This document shows, one piece after another, positions 47,001-48,765 of a stretch of 48,765 bases of DNA. This DNA is from an uncultured Pseudomonadota bacterium (GTDB lineage Bacteria; Pseudomonadota; Gammaproteobacteria; Steroidobacterales; Steroidobacteraceae): NCBI GenBank assembly GCA_903908825.1, contig CAIVTJ010000378.1, positions 1 to 48,765 on the forward strand. Direction: 5' to 3'. Every line of letters starts with the position of its first letter. Position 1 is the stretch's first letter. The notes beneath the pieces are model-generated. The model saw nothing but the letters and a program-made list of their open reading frames with translations. It made no database searches and was not told where the DNA came from. The position numbers were made by a program, and so were the translations under genes.

Positions 47001-47124
47001 TGCCGTCGGCACCGGTGTGATCGGCGGCATGCTGGCCTCGACCTTTCTGGCTATCTTCTTTGTGCCGCTGTTCTTCGTGCTGGTGATGGGCTGGTTCCGG
47101 GTGCGTCCGAAACCTGTTGCTTAG
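44005..47124 (+). CDS. RND efflux inner-membrane transporter (MexB/AcrB HAE1 family)
   Basis: [83 protein letters not shown]... Confidence 0.96.
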
Positions 47125-48014
47125 TGGGCTAACGACGCAGTCAGAAACACGCCGGCTTCGGTCAGTGCGTCGCGTCCTTCGCTGAGCATGAAGCCGAAGA
47201 TGTGCCACACGTGCGGCATGTTCGGCCACACGCTCAGGTGCACCGGCACATCGGCTGCGCCCAGTGCGCCCACCAGACGTATGGCATCGTCGAGCAGCAC
47301 CTCGGCCGTGCCCACCTGAACGAACACCGGCGGCAGGCCGCGCAGATCGGCATACAGCGGTGAGGCCAACGGCGTGGTCAAGGGCTTACCCTGCAAGTAA
47401 AGCTCGGCGTTGGCCAGCAAACCCTCGCGGGTGATCGACGGGTCGGCGGCGATCTTGGACTGCATGCTGCTACCGGTGCAGGCCAGATCGACCCAGGGTG
47501 AGATGGTCAAAGCGCCTGCAGGCATGGGCAGGCCGGCATCGCGCGCCGCTACCAGCGTTGCGATGACCAGGCCACCACCGGCCGAATCACCTGCCAGCAC
47601 GATGTCTGCAGGCTTGATGCCACCCTCCAGCAGCGCGCGGTAAGCGGCCACGCAATCATCGACCGCTGCCGGGAACGGATGCTCGGGGGCCAAGCGGTAA
47701 TCGAGTGACACCGTGCTGACGCCAGTGGCCCGGCCCAGTTCGCCGCTGAGCGAGCGATAGTCAGTGGGGTTGCCGATCACAAAAGCGCCGCCGTGGATGT
47801 AGAGCAGCGTCTGGTCGCTGCGTGCGCCCGGCGTGGTGGATGCCAGCACTGGCAGACCGGCCAGTTTTCCAGACTCAAACGTGATGTCCGCCGCCACCGG
47901 TGCCGCGCCTATGGACGCTGAAAAATCAGCGCGGGCTTTTTGCGGTGATGAGGTCAGGTCCAGTTCGTTCGAACGCAACAGGGTGATCAGTTGGGCAAGT
48001 TCAGCGCTGCTCAT
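47121..48014 (-). CDS. alpha/beta hydrolase, HSL-type esterase/lipase
   Basis: [20 protein letters not shown] (HGG oxyanion motif), [13 protein letters not shown] nucleophile elbow, [16 protein letters not shown]. Confidence 0.92.
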
Positions 48015-48136: not shown

Positions 48137-48487
48137 ATGACTGATGTACTGATTACGCTGCGAGATGCGCTGCGCACCTTTGCCGCCGAGCGTGACTGGG
48201 AGCCGTTTCATACGCCACGCAATCTGGCCGTGGCCCTCACTGTGGAGGCCGGCGAACTGCTGGAACATTTTCAGTGGATGGATGAACTGGCATCGACACA
48301 ACTCGATGCCGGCAGGCGGCAACAGATCGGCGAGGAGATGGCCGATGTGCTGCTGTACTTGATACGGCTGTCCGACAAGTTGCATGTGGATCTGGCCGAT
48401 GCAGCGCGGCGCAAGCTGCAGCTCAACGCGCAGAAATACCCAGCCGAGAAGGTGCGCGGCAGCAGCAAGAAATATACGGAGTATTGA
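48137..48487 (+). CDS. MazG-like nucleotide pyrophosphohydrolase
   Basis: RDWEPFHTPRNLAVALTVEAGELLEHFQWMDE...IGEEMADVLLYLIRLSDKLHVDL, EExxE...EExxD metal motif. Confidence 0.9.
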   Translation: MTDVLITLRDALRTFAAERDWEPFHTPRNLAVALTVEAGELLEHFQWMDELASTQLDAGRRQQIGEEMADVLLYLIRLSDKLHVDLADAARRKLQLNAQKYPAEKVRGSSKKYTEY

Positions 48488-48570
48488 CGGTATTTTGGTC
48501 CTTCCCGGTTGATTTGCGAGTGTCATCGCAGGAGGGGCTGGCTAAAGATTTGGCCCAGTGCTAGCTCATC

Positions 48571-48599
48571 TTGCGGTGTACGTTTGTGCATACTAATAT
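48571..48599 (+). promoter_or_regulatory. candidate sigma70 promoter for the brnT-remnant/brnA unit
   Basis: TTGCGG - 17 nt - TAATAT; the -10 overlaps the inferred remnant ATG. Confidence 0.4.
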
Positions 48600-48699
48600 G
48601 GATCAGTATGAATGGGATCCTGAAGGAAGGTACATACGGATCATTTCGTCCAGAAGGGCGAGCAGCGCGGAGCGGTTGCGCTACAGGAGCATCGAATGA
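48598..48699 (+). pseudogene. brnT toxin remnant: 33-codon ORF joining BrnT-like N- and C-termini
   Basis: MDQYEWDPE|GRYIRIISSRRASSAERLRYRSIE*; both halves fit the BrnT family pattern (N-terminal FEWDPxK; C-terminal IRIISARxAxxxERxxY), core absent. Confidence 0.68.
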
Positions 48700-48765
48700 G
48701 AAAGCACTACGACTTCTCCAAGGCCAAGCGCGGTTCTGTGGTTGCACCTGCACCCGGCAAGACCC
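48696..48765 (+). CDS. BrnA-like antitoxin, N-terminal part (continues beyond the window)
   Basis: MRKHYDFSKAKRGSVVAPAPGKT...; YDFSKxKRGxVxxxxPGKT is typical of BrnA-family N-termini; ATGA overlap with the brnT remnant. Confidence 0.72.
   Translation, partial: MRKHYDFSKAKRGSVVAPAPGKT

Follow-up and report, generated by a model that had tools for sequence, protein, structure and literature searches.

The 48,765-nucleotide window, which is an entire contig (C378) and stops at position 48765, ends in a brnTA toxin–antitoxin operon whose toxin has very probably been inactivated, and recently so, by a deletion that removed 58 codons from its interior in frame. The contig belongs to a 2.95 Mb genome in 381 contigs that is 98.8% complete. 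The brnT remnant lies on the forward strand at 48598–48699 and, as the initial annotation had read it, is open for 33 codons from ATG 48598 to TGA 48697–48699, with GAAGGAAGG at 48622–48630. The reported ATGA overlap likewise holds, the remnant TGA sharing bases with the brnA ATG at 48696. The start codon of the remnant is uncertain: a lake congener (G003) carries ATT opposite ATG 48598, and an in-frame GTG at 48586, common to the window and G003, would give 37 codons and a 37-aa product. Immediately upstream in both genomes is a MazG-like gene (PF12643 by Pfam; 48137–48487, forward strand), preceded by a conserved alpha/beta hydrolase gene (PF07859, Pfam E 1.4e-58; 47121–48014, reverse strand).

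An intact syntenic allele carries the case for deletion. Sixty relatives were searched with window positions 48488–48765, and one of them, the same-genus G003 (a MAG from Lac Pavin, a French lake; record JAPLSH010000006.1; 99% protein match), matched both sides of the gap: the upstream flank (48490–48618) at 90% over 129 bases (E 1.6e-44) and the downstream flank (48634–48763) at 81% over 130 bases (E 7e-29). These matches are separated by 189 bases in G003 and by 15 in the window, and direct alignment of the two places a gap of 174 nt, or 58 codons, at a junction spanning 48619–48625 (forward strand). Slippage at GAAGGAAGG, which the initial annotation had suggested, would be one conceivable cause. 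Gene order is the same in both genomes (hydrolase, MazG-like gene, brnT, brnA), with 78% DNA identity for the hydrolase gene and 86% protein identity for the MazG-like product. G003 BrnT (95 aa if read from GTG) matches PF04365 at 80 bits and aligns over residues 7–92 to the solved relative 7vd7; G003 BrnA has 84 aa and matches PF14384 (48 bits, E 2e-12). This two-sided alignment with an intact brnT in syntenic position assigns the remnant, at the level of sequence, to descent from brnT. An in-frame loss of roughly 55–60 codons ahead of a BrnA-like gene had been proposed, together with the expectation that related genomes would hold a full-length brnT aligning to both remnant halves; the G003 allele bears out both. 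The locus occurs in this one congener only, at ~80–90% identity, and G003 does not represent the exact ancestral allele; a scan of GTDB genomes for relatives of G003 BrnT returned nothing beyond G003 itself.

The missing part comprises everything in BrnT from the EWD start to the RIIS tail. The RKH of G003 BrnT falls inside the deleted segment, and the Lys-His pair is thereby lost from the remnant; in Aave_1720, the A. citrulli relative, Lys-17 and His-18 are required for RNase activity (PMC10714953). With 58 codons gone, this pair among them, the remnant is predicted to be incapable of forming the BrnT RNase fold, and with the toxin collapsed a working toxin–antitoxin pair at the locus is excluded by sequence. 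Against PF04365 the remnant scores 14 bits, covering profile positions 62–77 only and falling below the Pfam cut-off of 34.5 bits; its identification therefore comes through the syntenic relative and not through the profile.

The deletion is probably recent. Across the 15-codon stretch IRIISSRRASSAERL, six codons differ between the remnant and G003, all of them synonymously, which suggests that most of the divergence predates the deletion, when the toxin was under selection; residues differ beside the junction and near the C terminus. DNA identity to G003 is higher in the intergenic region (89%) than in the MazG-like gene (80%).

The 5′ end of brnA occupies 48696–48765 (forward strand), where 23 codons are visible before the contig end cuts the gene. 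They share 83% identity with G003 BrnA across 23 residues, in keeping with the BrnA-like downstream protein first described; alone they give no Pfam match, whereas their G003 counterpart matches its family. A Shine–Dalgarno AGGAG, identical in G003, lies within the brnT tail (48685–48689, forward strand), six bases before the brnA ATG. The view of this gene as an orphan antitoxin stands in part. Its toxin is collapsed, and a profile search of the genome recognised no other BrnT (PF04365) match. A whole brnA is unproven: the contig stops, the rest of brnA was not found in the genome's own assembly, and a search there for the genes downstream in G003 gave just short matches of 23–32 bases. Any whole brnA at the locus is a probable orphan.

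The deletion would have spared the promoter region together with both ends of brnT, the ATGA overlap and the beginning of brnA. From the old promoter, brnA would still be transcribed, with translation from its own AGGAG, so that the locus would yield antitoxin without toxin and this antitoxin would continue to repress its own promoter. Such a deletion would be tolerated if loss of the toxin is harmless and loss of the antitoxin is not. An autorepressed antitoxin without a toxin is thus the likely present state; in Brucella, BrnA alone binds its own promoter (as cited in PMC10714953).

The presumed brnTA promoter/operator, placed by comparison of 60-base upstream stretches, spans 48566–48597 (forward strand) in the intergenic region conserved with G003. 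Within it, TTGTGCATACTA (48584–48595), which G003 also has at the corresponding position, resembles the TGTANNTACAAT element that precedes brnT at many loci of the family. Over the 60 bases upstream of brnT, most of the surveyed loci place TGTANNTACAAT a few bases ahead of the start codon. So placed, it probably serves as −10 box and operator at once, and family brnT mRNA may be leaderless, whereas brnA has a Shine–Dalgarno of its own. A consensus promoter scan near the remnant ORF gave no sigma-70 site, and a combined promoter and terminator scan there gave nothing. The G003 brnT start also carries a perfect 14-base palindrome, ATATTGATCAATAT (L009:4249–4262), where the window has ATATGGATCAGTAT and the palindrome is broken.

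Across the family, PF14384 is present in 117 of 217 genomes, and we classified the upstream brnT at 70 brnA loci from among the best-scoring ones. A single open brnT frame precedes brnA in 48 of the 70; at eight loci brnT is in pieces that jointly cover most of the gene (interrupted by stops or frameshifts, some of which may be MAG errors), at five it is partial, at eight it is absent and at one the contig edge intervenes. Intact brnT is therefore missing at 21 of the 70, which suggests that the family often loses brnT while the adjacent brnA survives. Two of the partial cases, L164 (G131:C29) and L147 (G025:C42), resemble the window locus in that the brnT start is joined almost directly to the brnT tail before brnA, which is intact in both; they differ in that the halves are joined out of frame, and for L147 the start half was identified solely by visual inspection. 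Given these out-of-frame collapses, the preserved frame in the window needs no special explanation.

Four further loci of one genus (L135, L141, L146 and L162, in G197, G199, G196 and G016) have a stand-alone brnA of 92–93 aa without brnT, syntenic in the four species and preceded by a TTGTATATACAA-type palindrome. In these proteins conservation is strong in the C-terminal, DNA-binding half but not in the N-terminal one; this BrnA looks like one domesticated as a regulator. Judged by eye, L162 has perhaps kept a brnT tail, IRIIGNRGALEQRY.

Retention of the window's BrnA for its usefulness, either as an anti-addiction antitoxin against BrnT from mobile elements or as a stand-alone regulator, would be compatible with the deletion reading and would add a reason for retention, though we think it unlikely. 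Such roles have been proposed for orphan antitoxins (PMC7192599), and the four species of that other genus do keep a syntenic brnA; their BrnA is, however, different and divergent, and at the window locus, where just 23 brnA codons are visible and the loss looks recent, no sign of maintenance is seen. The decoy or leader role offered in the initial annotation found no support, since brnA has its own AGGAG, so many family brnA loci do without an intact brnT and two of the collapses are out of frame; for a decoy or regulator function there is no direct evidence.

The position of the junction bears on both the assembly and the sampled population. The first base on the 3′ side that is homologous to G003, 48625, equals 48765 minus 140 and thus opens the contig's final 141 bases. 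A comparison of ends across 80 other contigs of the genome gave four pairs that share exactly 141 terminal bases, which we take as the mark of a de Bruijn assembler run at k = 141, the upper limit of MEGAHIT's default k series; further pairs share 116 or 113 bases or overlap imperfectly, which points to a strain mixture. Because the last 141 bases begin at the 3′ edge of the deletion, a graph branch is suggested there, with a sequence in the sample that shares the brnT tail and brnA and differs before 48625. Judging by where the contig stops, this second allele is probably an intact brnT, and the deleted and intact alleles would probably coexist in the sampled population; a branch just beyond 48765 would terminate the contig at the identical place. 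An exact search of viral contigs with the junction-side 27-mer gave none.

The same position allows for an assembly artefact, in which an intact brnT had its two ends fused by a misjoin or a chimeric read close to where the contig stops; we rate this slightly below the useful orphan. The distance between the junction and the contig end does equal exactly one such overlap of 141 bases, the graph probably branches there, and the imperfect overlaps elsewhere indicate mixed strains. However, the two sides share just a few bases at the junction when compared with G003, and the smallest k-mer with which such assemblers make joins far exceeds that; the join is, moreover, precisely in frame, and the like collapses in other genomes (L164, L147) lie away from contig ends.

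Least probable is that the mini-ORF is a maintained leader, its frame selected and its translation coupling or tuning brnA expression: frame and ATGA overlap are preserved, but a third of deletions would keep the frame by chance alone, brnA is served by an AGGAG of its own, the end-to-end collapses of L164 and L147 are out of frame, and the time before the deletion accounts for the synonymous-only change. The initial description of the remnant as kept in frame thus finds no support as a maintained feature, the changes being recent-looking, and selection on its reading frame was considered and dropped as unnecessary.

The internal deletion of brnT sets the locus apart from BrnT/BrnA type II systems (PF04365/PF14384; Brucella abortus BrnTA) by the 58 missing codons with their Lys-His pair, while the toxin-then-antitoxin order, ATGA overlap, EWD start and RIIS-R-A---ER tail are shared. 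Orphan antitoxins are abundant and have been read as degraded toxin–antitoxin loci or possible anti-addiction genes (Klebsiella survey, PMC7192599). Like these, the window locus has an antitoxin in its original context without a functional toxin; unlike them, it retains both toxin ends and the overlap, as a fresh intermediate, and its brnA is incomplete in the assembly. A literature search on degenerate toxins of such systems returned nothing; the kind of event, ordinary toxin–antitoxin decay, is already known, and the instance alone is new. We read the locus as an early intermediate in that decay, the toxin core lost first and the antitoxin start and overlap remaining, with a possible polymorphism of intact and deleted brnT within one sample. 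That a toxin-less allele, antitoxin-only and immune to BrnT addiction, has here been caught spreading alongside an intact one in a natural population is a speculative extension that we doubt. The same genome has a second brnA (C112:784–945, 65 bits; locus L015, G000:C112:453–945), and the frame upstream of it resembles BrnT weakly, has no Pfam match and is possibly another decayed toxin.
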